A DNA stretch of 64,000 nt from a virus: positions 1-64,000 of IMG/VR virus record IMGVR_UViG_3300025732_000037. One strand, written 5' to 3'. Under the pieces are notes generated by a model. The model was not told the origin of the DNA. It made no database searches and worked only from the letters and a program-made list of their open reading frames with translations. The position numbers were made by a program, and so were the translations under genes. Shown in pieces: positions 181 through 62,831 of the stretch; the first letter of the stretch is position 1, and each line of letters opens with the position of its first letter.

Positions 181-1368
181 TTATTTGCTGAATGCTGAAA
201 GCGTTCTCAGATATGCAGCCATTGAGTCAGAGACTTGCTCCGGAGCAACGTCTACACCTTCCGATAAAGTTTCAGTTTTAGCTGATGGAGAAGCTACTCT
301 TGAAGGGAAATATGATTCCTTCAAAGTCTCCAGTTTTTCACGATATTCTGTTTCACTTTCAAACTCAACACTTTCGGTAAGTGAAGCGAGCTTGTCTTTC
401 TGAGTGTCTGCAAGACCTTCAGAGACCTGTTCAAAGATTCCATCAGCAACCGCCTCTGCGAGACGCTTGTTTAGGGAAACATTCTTTTCGATTTGCTCGT
501 TGAGTTTTGTCTCCATTTCATCAAGTTTTTCTACCATACTCTCAAGCACATCATATTTATCTTCAGGGATTGATACATAATGTTCTTCAAAAAGACCCTT
601 CATTCCAGCAAGGAATGATTCGGTCATTTCGGTCTTAAGACCTTGTTCAATGACGAGTGCATTTTCTTGAATCCACTCATCAGCAACATACTCAAGATAA
701 GCATCTACACGCTCGCTGAGTTCTGTTTTAATTTCTTCAACTTCCTCTGCGAGTGCAACTGCATATTGCTCCTCAATTGCTTCTTGAATCTGAGAAACTT
801 TGGAGCGAAGAGCAGCTTCAAAAATGATGCGTGCTTTCTCTTGGAATTCTTCAGAAAGTTCCTCACCTTCAAGAAGAGCATTGACATCTTCTTCGATATC
901 AAACTCTTCTTTCATATCTTCCTCTTCCTCTTCCTCATCTTCATCTTCCTTCTTACCTTTTTTCTTACCGACTTCCTCTTCCTCTTCCTCTTCCTCTTCT
1001 TTCGCTTCTACGATGTCATCTTCTTCATCAACTTCTTCTTCGATTAGATCTTCATCTTCCAGTTCCTCTTCTTCCTTGTGAAGACCTTTCATCGGATCTG
1101 CAGGTGAAGCACCTTTATTTACAACATCCTTAACTTGCTTAAGCGTTGCTCCAGGTTCTCTGAGTTTTGCAGAATCGTCATCTGGACGATAGTTGTCCGG
1201 AGTAGGACCTCCAAGATCCTCCCAACTACCAGTTTGTCCAGGAGCCATAACTCCAGAAGCATTACTACCTGCTTTTTGCATTGGATCCCCTGCCTTAGCA
1301 TTTGCATTGACAGCGGTTCTGGATTGCTTTGTGCCTACTTCCATTTCTTGTAAATCTCCACGAGACAT
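181..1368 (-). CDS. 22: Prohead core scaffold protein gp22
   Basis: This 395-residue protein sits between protease gene 21 and capsid gene 23, the place of T4 gene 22. It is longer than T4 gp22 (about 269 residues). Residues about 98-165 are almost uninterrupted Glu/Asp with a short Lys patch. The rest is a long charged helix-rich, coiled-coil-like sequence, as expected for a scaffold that fills the prohead and is later degraded. The N-terminus contains GDLQE, fitting the (L/I)-x-E rule for gp21 cleavage in T4. The start is chosen for the GGAG ribosome site 9 nt upstream and a perfect late promoter at 1407-1414. Identity rests mainly on position and composition. Confidence 0.8.
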   Translation of the reverse strand: MSRGDLQEMEVGTKQSRTAVNANAKAGDPMQKAGSNASGVMAPGQTGSWEDLGGPTPDNYRPDDDSAKLREPGATLKQVKDVVNKGASPADPMKGLHKEEEELEDEDLIEEEVDEEDDIVEAKEEEEEEEEEVGKKKGKKEDEDEEEEEEDMKEEFDIEEDVNALLEGEELSEEFQEKARIIFEAALRSKVSQIQEAIEEQYAVALAEEVEEIKTELSERVDAYLEYVADEWIQENALVIEQGLKTEMTESFLAGMKGLFEEHYVSIPEDKYDVLESMVEKLDEMETKLNEQIEKNVSLNKRLAEAVADGIFEQVSEGLADTQKDKLASLTESVEFESETEYREKLETLKESYFPSRVASPSAKTETLSEGVDVAPEQVSDSMAAYLRTLSAFSK

Positions 1369-1424: not shown

Positions 1425-2006
1425 TTACAATAGTATCTCATATTCATATCTTTTTTTAAAAGTCTGCTTAGAAACATTGAAGTATTCATAAGCATCTTTC
1501 ATACAACCAAATGTAATACCATTACAAATAATTTTTTTAGAATTTGGATTTTTTGAACCCTCGTTTCTTTTTGTAGAATTATCTACATATGGATTATTTA
1601 TTTCATAGTTTGGAATGTGTTTGTTTACGTCACCTATTTTTCTTTTATGATCTTCAGTTAATTTTTTGCCTAAATTTTTTGTTCTCAAATTATTTTTATG
1701 TTTGTTTGATAATTTGCAACCAGTTCTATCTGGAACCACTATATCTTTGTTTGTTAGAAATTGTTTGTAATAAGATATCAAAGAGGATTCTATTTTTAGT
1801 GAATTTTGATTAGATAAATTTTCAACAATTTTATATACTATTGGTTCAAATCCTAATTTTCTTATATTATCAATATAATTTAATTTCTTTTCATTATAGT
1901 TTGCGTATCCTTTAAGGTGTGCATTACATCTATCACCTTTTCCTTTACCAATATAAAATGGAGTTTTATTAATTGGATCAATTAAGGCATAAACATAATA
2001 TTCCAT
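1425..2006 (-). CDS. GIY-YIG homing-type endonuclease between genes 21 and 22
   Basis: This 193-residue protein begins MEYYVYALIDPINKTPFYIG, the first two motifs of a GIY-YIG nuclease, followed by KGKGDR. The middle has [10 protein letters not shown], a NUMOD3-like DNA-binding motif, and the C-terminus looks like a helix-turn-helix (FGCMKDAYEYFNVS). It is inserted in the otherwise conserved 21-22 junction. Alternative starts upstream (ATG at 2012, TTG at 2015) overlap the gene 21 stop. Free-standing GIY-YIG enzymes of this kind (T4 Seg proteins) cut related genomes and spread their own gene. It is AT-richer than its neighbours. Catalysis is untested. Confidence 0.85.
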   Translation of the reverse strand: MEYYVYALIDPINKTPFYIGKGKGDRCNAHLKGYANYNEKKLNYIDNIRKLGFEPIVYKIVENLSNQNSLKIESSLISYYKQFLTNKDIVVPDRTGCKLSNKHKNNLRTKNLGKKLTEDHKRKIGDVNKHIPNYEINNPYVDNSTKRNEGSKNPNSKKIICNGITFGCMKDAYEYFNVSKQTFKKRYEYEILL

Positions 2007-2011
2007 TATCA

Positions 2012-2662
2012 TCAAAGATTATTTAAAAACTCATTAAATAGACTTAATTTATACTCTTCAAGTATTTTTTGATCAACCAATCTATTAATTTCATTTTTGG
2101 TTTTATCAATTAACCAGTCATTTCTTGATGCGTCATAAATCCACTCAACGCCTTCCATGATTCCCTGAACGAATGCATCAGGAGCAGAAGGATCAGCAAC
2201 AATATCAGCTGCAGTTGCAAGCATAAAGTCTTCACCAACTTCCTTATAACCACCTCTGATATTTTCTCTCAGTGATCCAATACCACGAGAAGAAACGCCA
2301 AGAGTTACACCTTCTTTGAGAAGTGATTCTGCAATTTTACCCATTGGAGTAGAAAGAATCTGAGCTTTACCGATAAAATTGTTTCCTTCACGACAAAGTG
2401 AAACAATCATATGAGAAACACGATCTAGATTTACTGTAGGACCATCTGGATGACCAAGTTCTCCAAGAGCACGACCCTTATTTACATACTGTTCAGTGTA
2501 CCTTTTTACTTCACGTTCCATAATAGACATAGGATACATACGTCCATTACGGTTTACACATTCTGCCTGAAGGAAAGGACCTTGAATAAAAAGTTTTTGG
2601 TTTTTACCAGTTCCTTCGGTAATAACTTCAACCTTTTCGATTTCTTCTGTGATGAGTTTCAT
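2012..2662 (-). CDS. 21: Prohead core protein protease gp21
   Basis: This 216-residue protein is close to T4 gp21 (212 residues), the serine-type prohead protease that trims scaffold, capsid and internal proteins at (L/I)-x-E sites. GELGHPDGPTVNLDRVSH around residue 71 supplies the histidine region, and GVTLGVSSRGIGSL around 119-131 supplies the nucleophile serine. An upstream in-frame start is possible, but the ATG at 2660-2662 gives the family-typical N-terminus MKLITEEIEKVEVITE. Its substrates here probably include the proteins at 4542-4862, 57751-58428 and 59054-59746, which carry matching N-terminal sites. Confidence 0.9.
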   Translation of the reverse strand: MKLITEEIEKVEVITEGTGKNQKLFIQGPFLQAECVNRNGRMYPMSIMEREVKRYTEQYVNKGRALGELGHPDGPTVNLDRVSHMIVSLCREGNNFIGKAQILSTPMGKIAESLLKEGVTLGVSSRGIGSLRENIRGGYKEVGEDFMLATAADIVADPSAPDAFVQGIMEGVEWIYDASRNDWLIDKTKNEINRLVDQKILEEYKLSLFNEFLNNL

Positions 2663-2667
2663 AGTTC

Positions 2668-2937
2668 TTAGTTGGTAAATCCTACTTTTGCTGCTTTTAC
2701 TAATGATGATGATGACCAAATAACATAAGATGCTGGTTTTTCTAAAAACTCAACAGTATTTTGTGGCATAGTAAATGATGCAGTATCTGCAGCACCAACA
2801 GTGCTTGAAATACTTACTGTTGCAACACCAGAGTTTCCGTTATATAATCTTACGCAAGTTGATTCACTGATACTTGATGCAGTACCTGCAGTCGTCGGTA
2901 AAGCGATTTCAGACGCAAATATTTTTGTCCTTTGCAT
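2668..2937 (-). CDS. Small virion-cluster protein of unknown function (89 aa)
   Basis: I do not recognise this protein. It is short, Ser/Thr/Ala-rich and apparently all-beta (SGVATVSISSTVGAADTASFTM), without a signal or membrane segment. It lies 5 nt upstream of gene 21 and is preceded by a duplicated late-promoter motif, so it is expressed late. Its composition suggests a minor virion or decoration protein, which is inference from position. Confidence 0.65.
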   Translation of the reverse strand: MQRTKIFASEIALPTTAGTASSISESTCVRLYNGNSGVATVSISSTVGAADTASFTMPQNTVEFLEKPASYVIWSSSSLVKAAKVGFTN

Positions 2938-4541: not shown

Positions 4542-4862
4542 TCAATCAATCCATTCTAATTTAGATGGGTGATATCTTTGTACGTTTTTAATATTTAAAT
4601 TCTTTTCCACAACGGGATAAATTTGATGAACAACTGCTCCAGGATAGTCGGATTGAAGTTGCTCACCAAGATCTCTAGTTGATGGAATTCCGTTTTTAGT
4701 AATAAGTTCTAAACGATATAAACTTCCCTGCCACATTACATCGGCAACATATTCCTCACCGACTTGTTGTGGTTGTTCTGATTGTGAGTTGATATAAAGA
4801 TTTCCTGTGAAATCTCCAGCAATATTAACTGATTCTGAGATAAATTGCTTGAAAGATTTCAT
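4542..4862 (-). CDS. Prohead core/internal protein with capsid-targeting N-terminus (gp68 position)
   Basis: This 106-residue protein occupies the place of T4 gene 68 (prohead core). It begins MKSFKQFISESV, which resembles the T4 capsid-targeting peptide MKTYQEFIAEA of internal proteins; FISE followed by S matches the (I/L)-x-E cleavage rule. Residues about 40-90 (VMWQGSLYRLEL, PSTRDLGEQLQSDYPGAVV) form a compact domain that recurs in the 445-residue protein at 11606-12943. It is 3 nt from the upstream 52-codon gene. I infer packaging in the head and cleavage by gp21. Confidence 0.7.
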   Translation of the reverse strand: MKSFKQFISESVNIAGDFTGNLYINSQSEQPQQVGEEYVADVMWQGSLYRLELITKNGIPSTRDLGEQLQSDYPGAVVHQIYPVVEKNLNIKNVQRYHPSKLEWID

Positions 4863-45285: not shown

Positions 45286-46038
45286 ATGAACCAAGGAATA
45301 ATCTATGCCATTTTCAATAAAGAAACTGGCAAATATTACATAGGTCAAACTATACACGAACTGAACAAAAAGTGGAAGGAACATCTATATGAAGCGCGGA
45401 GAATGAATGATGCTCCACTATACAGATCTCTACGCAAATATGGAGAAGATAAGTTTAAGATTAGGGTGATAGAAGAGTGCTCTGCGGATATACTTGACGA
45501 CAGAGAAACTTACTGGATAAATGAATACAACTCTTACATCAATGGATATAATCAAACTTCAGGATCTGGCGGTCAGTATAGAGTAAGCATTACAATGAGT
45601 GGGGTTGAGAAGACACCAGAACACATTGAAAATATAAGAAAATCAATAAAAAGAAACGGCGTTGGTTTTAAGATAAGAGGTGACGGTAAGCATAGTTGTG
45701 TCAAAGTAAAAACGATAAATGTTGATACTCTGGAAGAAAAGTTTTACGATAGTTTAACTGAATGTGCGAAAGCATTAAATATCACAAATGGAAACCTTTG
45801 TCGTTATATCAAACACGGATGGAAAGTTAAAGGTCACAGAATAATCAAGTTAGAGAATAAAAAGAAAAGTCACGCAATCTATGGCGTAGATAAGATTACA
45901 AATCAAGTCAAATATACGTTCTCAAGTGTAAGAGAAGCAGGGAGAGTTTTAGGAACTGGTGGAGCAAGTGGATGTGATAAATCACTCAAACATCCACACA
46001 AATACACTTGGAAAGGTTGTTATTGGTTCTATCAATAA
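45286..46038 (+). CDS. GIY-YIG homing-type endonuclease on the plus strand (250 aa)
   Basis: Residues 1-90 form the nuclease: GIIYAIFNKETGKYYIGQT (GIY and YIG motifs), a conserved Arg-rich helix, and LDDRETYWINEYNS with the catalytic Glu. Then follow a NUMOD3-like TPEHIENIRKSIKRN and two NUMOD1-like DNA-binding repeats (FYDSLTECAKALNITNGNLC; TFSSVREAGRVLG). It is one of only two plus-strand genes called here. It is oriented against its neighbours, which fits insertion of a mobile gene. Its 3' end meets a leftward terminator. Confidence 0.9.
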   Translation: MNQGIIYAIFNKETGKYYIGQTIHELNKKWKEHLYEARRMNDAPLYRSLRKYGEDKFKIRVIEECSADILDDRETYWINEYNSYINGYNQTSGSGGQYRVSITMSGVEKTPEHIENIRKSIKRNGVGFKIRGDGKHSCVKVKTINVDTLEEKFYDSLTECAKALNITNGNLCRYIKHGWKVKGHRIIKLENKKKSHAIYGVDKITNQVKYTFSSVREAGRVLGTGGASGCDKSLKHPHKYTWKGCYWFYQ

Positions 46039-57750: not shown

Positions 57751-58428
57751 TCAACTTTCAGATGCTTGTGCTGCTGCTTTTGCTTTTGCTCTCATCTGAA
57801 CAGCAACTTTACTATTCCACTTTCCACCATCCGCTTCATATTCTTTACGCATTTGTGCAAGGATTTCCGTGGCAGATTTCTTAGTCTTTTGTGCTGTTGC
57901 TGTTTTCTCTTTATTTCTAGCAGCATCTCTCTCCTGACGTGTCATAGGAGTACCATCAGGATGCGTCCACTTTCTGCGGGATTTTGCTTCTGGTTTTTCT
58001 GATGTTGGTTTTGCTTGAGAGATTGCTTGTGATGCGGTCTTGGGTTGTTCCTTACCACTTTCTCTTGCTTTACGCTCAAGATATGCTTTACGTTGCAGTT
58101 CTTTTCTAGACATTGCAGCACTACCTTGAGTTCCAGCAGTTCCTGCTTTTAACTCAGTTGAACCTTGACCTCTTCCTGGTGCTGGTGCTGAAGATCCTCT
58201 CTGCTGACCAACATCTTTACGTTCTTTGTAAGGTGCGATTGGTTCTGTTTTACCACCACCAACTGCTCTTGTTCTTCTAACTTCAGGAGCAGTCTTTTTG
58301 CGCTCTTTTCCTATTCTACCACCATCACCTGTGCGGGTGATAGACGCACCACCACCCCATCCAAGTTGTTTGGCAGCATCAGCATCAGATGCTTCGCAAA
58401 TAGACATAAACTCCCGAAACGTCTTCAT
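57751..58428 (-). CDS. Basic internal-head-protein candidate with capsid-targeting N-terminus (225 aa)
   Basis: The N-terminus MKTFREFMSICEASDADAAK resembles the T4 capsid-targeting peptide (MKTYQEFIAEA); SICE followed by A fits the (I/L)-x-E prohead protease site. The rest is low-complexity and very basic, rich in Lys, Arg, Ala, Gly and Ser (KERKKTAPEVRRTRAVGGGK, RKAYLERKARESGKEQPKTA), like T4 internal proteins packed with DNA. A CTAAATA late-like box lies 24 nt upstream, unlike the surrounding early genes. It could be ejected into the host. Confidence 0.6.
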   Translation of the reverse strand: MKTFREFMSICEASDADAAKQLGWGGGASITRTGDGGRIGKERKKTAPEVRRTRAVGGGKTEPIAPYKERKDVGQQRGSSAPAPGRGQGSTELKAGTAGTQGSAAMSRKELQRKAYLERKARESGKEQPKTASQAISQAKPTSEKPEAKSRRKWTHPDGTPMTRQERDAARNKEKTATAQKTKKSATEILAQMRKEYEADGGKWNSKVAVQMRAKAKAAAQASES

Positions 58429-59018: not shown

Positions 59019-59054
59019 CAATATTAGAACACTTTGGAGGTGAGTTATTTTATT
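59019..59054 (-). repeat. Intergenic 36-bp repeat, copy 15
   Basis: The rightmost copy, diverged at both ends (TTCTAATATTGTAAG; AATAACTCACC on the minus strand). It marks the boundary to the late muramidase gene. Confidence 0.8.
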
Positions 59055-59746
59055 TACTTGCCTCCAAAAGATTTATATCTTGAACCTTCAGGTTGTGACC
59101 AACCTCTCTGTGAAAACTTACCAGTTGTCTTATCCAACTCTCCAGTTTTTCCTTTTAATTTTGCAAGAACTCTAGTGGGTGATGGAGTATCTAATGATCC
59201 TTGAGTTCCTGTTTTTGGTGCTGGTTTTGCAGCAACTGTAGCGGCGCCAGCAGCAGCACCAGATCCATATTTTCTTGCAATACTTGATACCTTAGTCACA
59301 TAATCAGGGTCAGTTGCATATGCTCCGTGACTTCTTTCCTTTGATCCAGGTATTTTTGCTCCTCCAGGTAACTGAAGTCTTCTTGTAGCATCTTCTACAT
59401 CTTTAGCACCTCTAGTTTTATAACTCCACTTATTCATTCTGTCCTTGATACTGGAATCAAGACTGTCATAGTCTTTAAATCTTGCAGAGGTTGTTACACT
59501 TCTTCCACCTTGAACTTCCCAAGTTCCTTTGGTTGATCCTGCTTCTTTACTACTTGCTTTTTGACCAAAATAGTTATTTTTTCCACTAGGAGACTTACCC
59601 CATCCAGTTTCTAATGCTGCTTGTGATGCTCCCAAATCTGCCTCAACATCACTTGCACCTGCTTTTTTGAATCTTGCTTTTACATCATTATAAAATGCTT
59701 GTTGAGCAGACGTTGCTTCACCTAAAAACTGATTAAAGGTTTTCAT
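59054..59746 (-). CDS. Capsid-targeted peptidoglycan hydrolase candidate, GH73-like (230 aa)
   Basis: The N-terminus MKTFNQFLGEATSAQQAFYN looks like a T4 capsid-targeting peptide with an LGE cleavage site followed by A. Residues about 38-64 (LGASQAALETGWGKSPSGKN NYFGQKA, Glu 46) are the signature of glucosaminidase/FlgJ-type muramidases, and RFKDYDSLDSSIKDRM plus GAYATDPDYVTKVSSIARKY continue that family's fold. The last 60 residues are a basic, Gly/Ala-rich tail. A CATAAATA late box lies 20 nt upstream. I infer a late protein packed in the head and ejected with DNA, or a virion lysin. Confidence 0.75.
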   Translation of the reverse strand: MKTFNQFLGEATSAQQAFYNDVKARFKKAGASDVEADLGASQAALETGWGKSPSGKNNYFGQKASSKEAGSTKGTWEVQGGRSVTTSARFKDYDSLDSSIKDRMNKWSYKTRGAKDVEDATRRLQLPGGAKIPGSKERSHGAYATDPDYVTKVSSIARKYGSGAAAGAATVAAKPAPKTGTQGSLDTPSPTRVLAKLKGKTGELDKTTGKFSQRGWSQPEGSRYKSFGGK

Positions 59747-59763: not shown

Positions 59764-59771
59764 TATTTATG
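59764..59771 (-). promoter_or_regulatory. Late promoter box for the muramidase-like gene
   Basis: CATAAATACC on the minus strand, 18 nt before the ATG, at the end of the 85-residue gene. Confidence 0.6.
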
Positions 59772-62147: not shown

Positions 62148-62831
62148 CTACAAGGTCTCCTGTGCCACTTCTTCAACTGCCACAAGGTCTTTATATCTTT
62201 TCCATTCTTTGAGTTGAAGTTTTCTCAATCCAAGTTTATTATATCCATTTTTTATTCTCCAAGGTTGAAGTGCTTTTACAATTTCAACTCTACCATTTTC
62301 ATAAGTTATTTTCCAAGTTTTTGCTCTTGGATTATTAGCACCACTTACATCTAATCCATTTTTATATCTTTCTTTCATCATTTGACGATTTATTTCTTTT
62401 TGATGTTCTGGTATAGTTCCACCTTTATTCCAACCAATATGCCCTTTATTTGCCTTCCCAATTTTTCTTTTATGATCTTCACTCTTTTTTCTTCCTTTAC
62501 CAGCAGCAGATAACTTTTCACAATGTTTTTTTGAAAGTTTTTTCCCAGTATTCCAAGGAATAACACCAGATGCTCCATCGCCACCATTTGTAAGATTTCT
62601 TAAAACCCCAGTTCCTAAATCTTTTCTACCAAAAACAGTAATCATATAGATTTCGTGTTTAAATGCTTCTTCTTCGGTTAGGTTTTGTTTTAGTATGAGT
62701 ATTCTTTCTTTTGGAGGAACACTAAGATTTTTCTTTCTTCGGTGTTTAGCATATGCCCTATTACCTTTCCCCTTACCAATATAATAAGGTGTTCCATCTT
62801 CACGCAAATATGCGTAAGTGTAGTATTCCAT
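62148..62831 (-). CDS. GIY-YIG homing-type endonuclease, Seg-like (227 aa)
   Basis: The nuclease domain is intact: [20 protein letters not shown], an Arg-rich helix, and [20 protein letters not shown] with the catalytic Glu. Three NUMOD3-like motifs follow ([45 protein letters not shown]), then a C-terminal DNA-binding part. Its N-terminus is nearly identical to the truncated copy at 48187-48366. It lies between the 139-residue gene and the Dam-like gene and carries the compound regulatory element directly upstream. Confidence 0.92.

Follow-up and report, generated by a model that had tools for sequence, protein, structure and literature searches.

The 64,000-nucleotide stretch of DNA analysed here (the window, positions 1 to 64,000 of IMG/VR record IMGVR_UViG_3300025732_000037), which is part of a 65.8-kb fragment of a T4-like cyanophage, encodes a 230-residue protein in which an N-terminal capsid-targeting sequence (CTS) of the T4 type is followed by a cell-wall glucosaminidase domain of glycoside hydrolase family 73 (GH73). 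We consider it likely, at a probability of about three in four, that this protein is packaged in the head, cleaved behind the CTS and acts as a wall hydrolase; this figure leaves the precise role aside. In a family of uncultured phages the tag has been conserved, and the head therefore probably delivers a wall-degrading enzyme. All testable features of a CTS-bearing internal protein and of GH73 were found together, a combination that, as far as we found, is undescribed for T4-like phages. Packaging, cleavage, ejection and enzymatic activity are predictions from the sequence. A preliminary description had proposed such a hydrolase, carried inside the head and delivered with the DNA; its observation was confirmed, its interpretation is supported and every computable prediction held.

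A GH73 glucosaminidase behind a T4-type N-terminus

The open reading frame (ORF), placed by the preliminary description at 59054-59746 with the start MKTFNQFLGEA, was confirmed and lies on the minus strand (Table 1). Its sole Pfam match was PF01832 (E 8.8e-17, 62.4 bits against a curated cut-off of 30.2), and a sequence search of solved structures with the 230-residue protein led to FlgJ-type hydrolases. The comparison of a predicted structure with GH73, which had been suggested as a check, gave a confident fold: an AlphaFold2 (AF2) model of the mature domain from 30 sequences had a predicted local distance difference test (pLDDT) score of 91.2, with VIA Z values of 15.1 to FlgJ 3vwo and of 14.1 to both the E185A mutant 3k3t and AtlA 7qfu. 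This model was used instead of an earlier run with 7 sequences (pLDDT 59.6), which was set aside. Glu46, correctly picked out beforehand in ALETGWG, sits within SQAALETGWGKS, is aligned to AALETGWGKS of FlgJ and is invariant across the CTS-GH73 family and a wider set; as the neighbouring positions are invariant too, enzyme activity appears to be selected. By profile, predicted fold and catalytic Glu we regard the protein as a probable GH73 glucosaminidase, predicted to hydrolyse bonds between N-acetylglucosamine and N-acetylmuramic acid (GlcNAc-MurNAc). The earlier description as GH73-like stands, and the label "muramidase-like" does not, since GH73 is a glucosaminidase family and muramidase an old name for FlgJ.

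Cleavage is predicted after Glu10 and before Ala11, and would leave a mature protein of 220 residues and 23.2 kDa. Its isoelectric point (pI) of 9.94 is in line with the basic nature of T4-type internal head proteins. The 64-kb window has 2 ORFs with a strict and 1 with a loose CTS, against 0.000 and 0.1, respectively, expected from a shuffle null. The strict pattern recovered T4 IPII and IPIII as positive controls and missed genuine cases (T4 IPI, S-SM1 SSM1_190 and shifted cleavage sites), so counts based on it are lower bounds. The window genome also contains the T4-type genes for gp20 portal, gp22 scaffold and gp21 protease that are found in CTS-bearing systems; the portal is 80% identical to that of S-SM2 and the terminase 86% identical to that of S-SCSM1.

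Conservation of the tag

Two scans of IMG/VR gave about 20 loci with relatives that match from residue 1 and are 44-100% identical. All full-length members (L003-L011, L157-L167, L185, L187 and L199) begin with M[KR]x[FY]xxF and continue into an [LIV]xE site, including L185, L187 and L199, which were found via the C-terminal motif described below. Phe4 and Phe7 are invariant, one Tyr4 excepted. The cleavage motif, LGE/A in the window (the slash marks the predicted cut), is LGE, LSE, VTE, ILE, VME, INE or IAE at residues 8-10 in relatives; in one group it is shifted by three residues (LQE or IQE at 11-13), and in L199 it lies later than residue 13. According to the alignment, the targeting residues and the cleavable Glu are retained while the residues between them vary and the site slides.

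Work on T4 IPIII by truncation and suppressor mutagenesis established that loading needs no more than the first 10 residues, that residues 4 and 7 mainly target, that residues 8 and 10 permit processing and that gp21 cuts after [LI]xE (PMC9026906). The positions conserved in our family are those that matter in T4, and the proposed T4-like CTS with a gp21-type site was conserved in the family members checked. The first [LI]xE in T4 IPI is ITE at residue 19, so a cleavage site can lie further in. In a domain-only tree, which replaced a tree that had included CTS and C-terminal columns, the CTS-carrying GH73 domains formed one clade (support 99/98) apart from tail-hub and other phage GH73s. The L004 copy lacks 15 residues within the GH73 domain and is possibly defective or misassembled.

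Late promoter and gene context

The upstream box CATAAATA matches the cyanophage late promoter consensus NATAAATA (PMC2984593), which suggests late expression. The late box had been noted before and is conserved: [ACG]TAAATA lies 23-37 nt upstream in nearly all relatives, with L011 as the exception. The further claim that the gene is flanked by early-type genes was borne out in part. In the window the flanks are small ORFs. Further late boxes stand some 1.3 kb upstream (61.0-61.1 kb) and ahead of the gene at 57751-58428, so the surroundings are not purely early. In eight relatives (L005, L007, L009, L157, L160, L162, L164 and L166) the gene lies beside exonuclease and gp33-like genes and before homologues of gp59, DUF1825 and gp32, as assigned by gene order and resemblance to annotated cyanophages, with gp32 confirmed by tblastn. 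The corresponding junction of cultured S-SKS1 and S-SCSM1 holds no insertion; with the insertion in these relatives, this late gene is repeatedly located among replication genes. The idea that it is confined to early regions was dropped, since the L167 copy adjoins the gp17 terminase gene.

Virion proteomes of cultured cyanophages

Five CTS-like ORFs lie in the first 150 kb of S-CREM2 (cytidylyltransferase, APH-like kinase, SAM hydrolase, gp13 and gp136), and all of them are in the virion proteome (PMC10665884, Table 3), with a chance probability of 0.0004 given 43 of 200 coding sequences detected. The pattern had been widened to Gln at residue 2 after gp136 was seen; otherwise the count is 4 of 4 (chance 0.002). 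About 209 of the 229 kb of S-SCSM1 were scanned and gave two strict CTS ORFs, one of which, an NMNAT, is a virion protein (PMC9602691). Jointly, 6 of the 7 scanned CTS-like ORFs of these two phages are in virions, and published mass spectrometry thereby supports the tag as a mark of virion proteins. T4-GC190 of S-SM1, with the N-terminus MKKFSAFLNEA, was likewise detected in virions (PMC3037559). In the parts seen of the S-CREM2, S-SCSM1 and S-SM1 papers on these enzymes we did not find the CTS named. A virion-detected Cas9-like protein of S-CREM2 (L261, 7704-10313, minus strand) has a CTS-like RFASFMAEA near its annotated N-terminus.

Capsid-targeting sequences on other cyanophage proteins

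A generic CTS pattern, which fixes the first 11 residues only, was run as DNA over IMG/VR and found at least 124 ORFs at at least 120 loci. Among the matches listed, mature pI exceeded 8.5 in 94 of 102 distinct complete CTS ORFs, versus 35% of controls from the same loci, and 67 of 100 had a late box within 50 nt, versus 20% of control ORFs. Since the members of a cluster are not independent observations, it is fairer to count clusters: the ORFs fall into at least 36 unrelated cargo clusters, of which at least 30 have a median pI above 8.5 and at least 19 show a late box in half or more of their members. Named cargo among the first 81 CTS ORFs comprised CTP_transf_like (11), DUF5661 (7), DPBB_1 lytic transglycosylase (3) and GNAT (1). 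The tag is modular, and one of its cargoes is a second peptidoglycan-lytic fold, DPBB_1/RlpA (L044, L075 and L103). The lytic activity of these RlpA-type proteins is uncertain, as a Glu carried by both cultured RlpA relatives compared is replaced in them by Gln or Ser. CTS fusions to RlpA-type DPBB domains with late boxes are at L044 5138-5554 (minus), L075 2400-2801 (minus), L103 2654-3046 (plus) and L117 1349-1759 (plus).

Two other proteins of the window have CTS-like starts. The 225-residue product of 57751-58428 (minus strand; MKTFREFMSICE/A), whose gene has CTAAATA 30 nt upstream, is similar to a basic, widespread family of CTS proteins with the motif RR/KKTxPExRRxKAxGGGK and at least 14 members in the CTS scan. 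The other, at 4542-4862 (minus strand; MKSFKQFISE/S), belongs to phrog_1742, of unknown function, and its gene lies between those for portal and prohead protease. Back-to-back tandem CTS genes occur at L048 3736-4529 and L100 639-1591; among their products are a GNAT acetyltransferase and proteins of no Pfam family that contain the stretch HGTxxSxAxxIxxxGF.

A C-terminal motif common to tagged proteins

The last approximately 44 residues of the GH73 protein are conserved as a motif that also recurs outside GH73. A loose CTS is present in at least 37 of the 66 IMG/VR motif ORFs among the matches listed, about a dozen of these 37 being members of the GH73 family, and late boxes precede many of the remaining ones listed. 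In L089 the CTS is joined directly to the motif. S-PRM1 gp029 (L181, 1399-2052) and its DSL-LC03 counterpart (L182) combine CTS, motif and a third region, with the gene directly after the major capsid gene. No convincing Pfam family was found for this third region in gp029 and relatives, and a profile-profile comparison related it to RlpA/DPBB proteins (93.9%, E 1.6e-7); as the link comes from this comparison only, the enzymatic nature of gp029 is putative. We found no description of the motif.

Motif-bearing late proteins lacking MKTFxxF (L216, L217, L227, L235, L241, L242 and L256) have another N-terminal pattern, LMEAYxxV or LADAYASIY, which is possibly a second head-targeting signal. SSCSM1_89 of S-SCSM1 (86357-87328), annotated as a virion protein, shares this pattern with LSEAYAAVY. 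The protein at L204 374-1042 (plus strand) has an MKSFAQF start, the C-terminal motif and a different domain with GDSIAVG and DGVHP, which looks SGNH-hydrolase-like by eye; no Pfam family matched this domain, and the N-terminus could be a signal peptide.

Table 1. Features of the window that bear on the CTS-GH73 protein
Feature	Position	Strand	Remarks
CTS-tagged GH73 glucosaminidase coding sequence (predicted)	59054..59746	minus	230 residues, ATG start; precursor 24.4 kDa, pI 9.9
Predicted CTS, residues 1-10, MKTFNQFLGE	59717..59746	minus	family alignment and T4 rule
GH73 / Glucosaminidase domain PF01832	59267..59662	minus	Pfam; fold Z 15.1 to FlgJ 3vwo
Predicted catalytic Glu46 (ALETGWG)	59609..59611	minus	invariant in family; aligns with the FlgJ glutamate of E185A mutant entry 3k3t
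Conserved C-terminal motif TPSPTRVLAKLKGKTGELDKTTGKFSQRGWSQPEGSRYKSFGGK	59057..59188	minus	common to other CTS-tagged cyanophage proteins
Late promoter box CATAAATA	59764..59771	minus	24 nt upstream of ATG
gp21-type prohead protease, presumed cleaving enzyme	2012..2719	minus	phrog_207 head maturation protease, E 8e-80
gp22-type head scaffold, presumed CTS binding partner	181..1368	minus	phrog_237, E 2.5e-109

The window also contains homing-endonuclease-like ORFs of GIY-YIG/NUMOD3 type at 1425-2015 (minus), 45286-46038 (plus) and 62148-62831 (minus), the first of them between the prohead protease and scaffold genes.

Proposed mechanism and alternative explanations

Late in infection the protein would be made from its own late promoter, and binding of its first ten residues to the prohead core would let it co-assemble inside the prohead. 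The gp21-type protease would then cut after Leu-Gly-Glu10 and free the basic 220-residue enzyme, which would stay among the packaged DNA and leave the head with it in the next infection. Its most likely role would be to supplement the baseplate enzymes by cutting the peptidoglycan of the cyanobacterium locally, at entry or shortly afterwards. Up to ejection, the pathway applies established T4 biology, by analogy, to the conserved tag; the activity and the site of action we infer. For the entry role, given packaging, we see slightly less than an even chance.

Several points weigh against head delivery of a wall hydrolase. The main difficulty is topological: the internal proteins of T4 end up in the cytoplasm, whereas peptidoglycan lies across the membrane, and an entry role therefore needs release in the periplasm or transit of the membrane. 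The baseplate region of cyanophages already holds lysozyme and GH73 proteins. Among the cultured phages of our collection none had the CTS-GH73 combination, and the proteomes compared are those of phages without this gene. The other strict CTS ORF of S-SCSM1, SSCSM1_30 (106 residues, a homologue of window 4542-4862), is not marked as a virion protein, so the CTS is not a perfect predictor of virion presence. Finally, the S-CREM2 and S-SCSM1 authors left open whether the detected enzymes are packaged or co-purified (PMC10665884, PMC9602691); the CTS that these enzymes have in common favours packaging.

The strongest alternative, a real though lesser possibility, overlaps with our reading on packaging and differs on the role: the protein may be loaded via its CTS as a structural filler, a DNA-binding basic protein or a factor in superinfection exclusion, or the head may be a safe store for a toxic hydrolase until release. 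The internal proteins of T4 serve a variety of functions directed at the host (PMC9026906, PMC3012670), and the very basic mature protein, the normal end of head delivery in the cytoplasm and the lysozymes already present in the baseplate region are all consistent with another job. The invariant catalytic Glu and its neighbouring positions are harder to reconcile with it, and the tag on a second, unrelated wall-lytic fold points to wall targets.

An ordinary endolysin, made late and acting from inside at the end of infection, with the CTS-like start incidental or a relic, is unlikely. The gene does resemble one, being a small, stand-alone GH73 with a late promoter whose PHROG matches are labelled endolysin and whose nearest GH73 relatives in cultured phages bear the annotation endolysin or lysozyme. 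Yet relatives with as little as 44% identity retain the CTS residues, with a coordinated shift of the cleavage motif in some, and the C-terminal motif is common to CTS proteins without GH73. Moreover, dedicated lysis enzymes (S-CREM2 gp169/gp170, S-SM1 SSM1_220 and S-SCSM1 141) lack a CTS, and neither gp169/gp170 nor S-SCSM1 141 is detected or marked as a virion protein.

It is very improbable that the protein sits in the tail or baseplate with a coincidental CTS resemblance: the GH73s of S-RIM2, S-B64, S-H35 and S-SCSM1 do lie in large proteins of the baseplate-hub block, and that of S-SCSM1 is found in virions, but these proteins have 730-950 residues, the S-SCSM1 one lacks a CTS, the S-RIM2 and S-B64 domains fall outside the CTS-GH73 clade, and the 230-residue protein lacks a tail domain and is encoded outside the hub gene block.

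Comparison with known systems

The predicted head-packaged hydrolase resembles T4 IPI, IPII and IPIII (and Alt) in its 10-residue N-terminal CTS with aromatics at 4 and 7, its [LI]xE gp21 site and its basic mature form; the delayed cleavage site of IPI has its like in some GH73 relatives, and T4 and the window phage both have the T4-type portal, scaffold and protease in the same genome. The cargo differs, anti-restriction and takeover proteins in T4 versus a cell-wall glucosaminidase here, and the C-terminal motif was not seen in the T4 internal proteins. The wall enzyme of T4 is gp5 in the baseplate, whereas here it would be head cargo. Virion-carried enzymes that cut peptidoglycan and are ejected at infection are known from T7 gp16 and SP6 gp36, podovirus internal lysins that lie inside the head, and from phi29 gp3 (PMC5380687, PMC6116005). 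In contrast to these, we deal with a predicted 23-kDa enzyme with a cleavable loading tag in an uncultured, contractile-tailed T4-like phage; the large size, lytic transglycosylase motif and ejected channel of gp16-type core lysins were not found in this 230-residue GH73 protein, which has no other Pfam domain. For contractile-tailed T4-like phages we found no description of wall hydrolases delivered via the head, and in the open-licence literature no paper that pairs capsid targeting with an endolysin.

The baseplate-region GH73 proteins annotated endolysin or lysozyme (S-RIM2 SWTG_00201, 36% identical, and S-SCSM1 ORF213) have the same catalytic domain family, and ORF213 is virion-associated, as predicted for our protein; these domains are in the 730-950-residue hub-region proteins, form a separate clade and have no CTS where read. 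FlgJ and related GH73 hydrolases have the same predicted fold and catalytic Glu (Z 14-15) and are flagellar or secreted bacterial enzymes without CTS. The cytidylyltransferase/NMNAT T4-GC190 and the S-CREM2 SAM hydrolase and APH-like kinase have the same type of N-terminus on an enzyme and were found in purified virions, with cargo directed at small molecules or host metabolism rather than the wall.

A more far-reaching reading, for which we see not quite even odds, is that the CTS of T4-like cyanophages serves as a general loading signal for many kinds of ejected enzyme. Among these, two or more unrelated wall-lytic folds (GH73, RlpA/DPBB and possibly an SGNH type) would be loaded into the head and remodel the host wall at entry. 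The claim about the tag is testable in the cultured phages S-PRM1, DSL-LC03, S-CREM2 and S-SCSM1, and the CTS rule could explain why kinases, NMNAT-like enzymes and SAM hydrolase are repeatedly found in cyanophage virions. If our reading is true, a cell-wall hydrolase would travel in a T4-type head, where the characterised cargo consists of takeover and anti-restriction proteins, and the injected content of T4-like heads would be readable from sequence.
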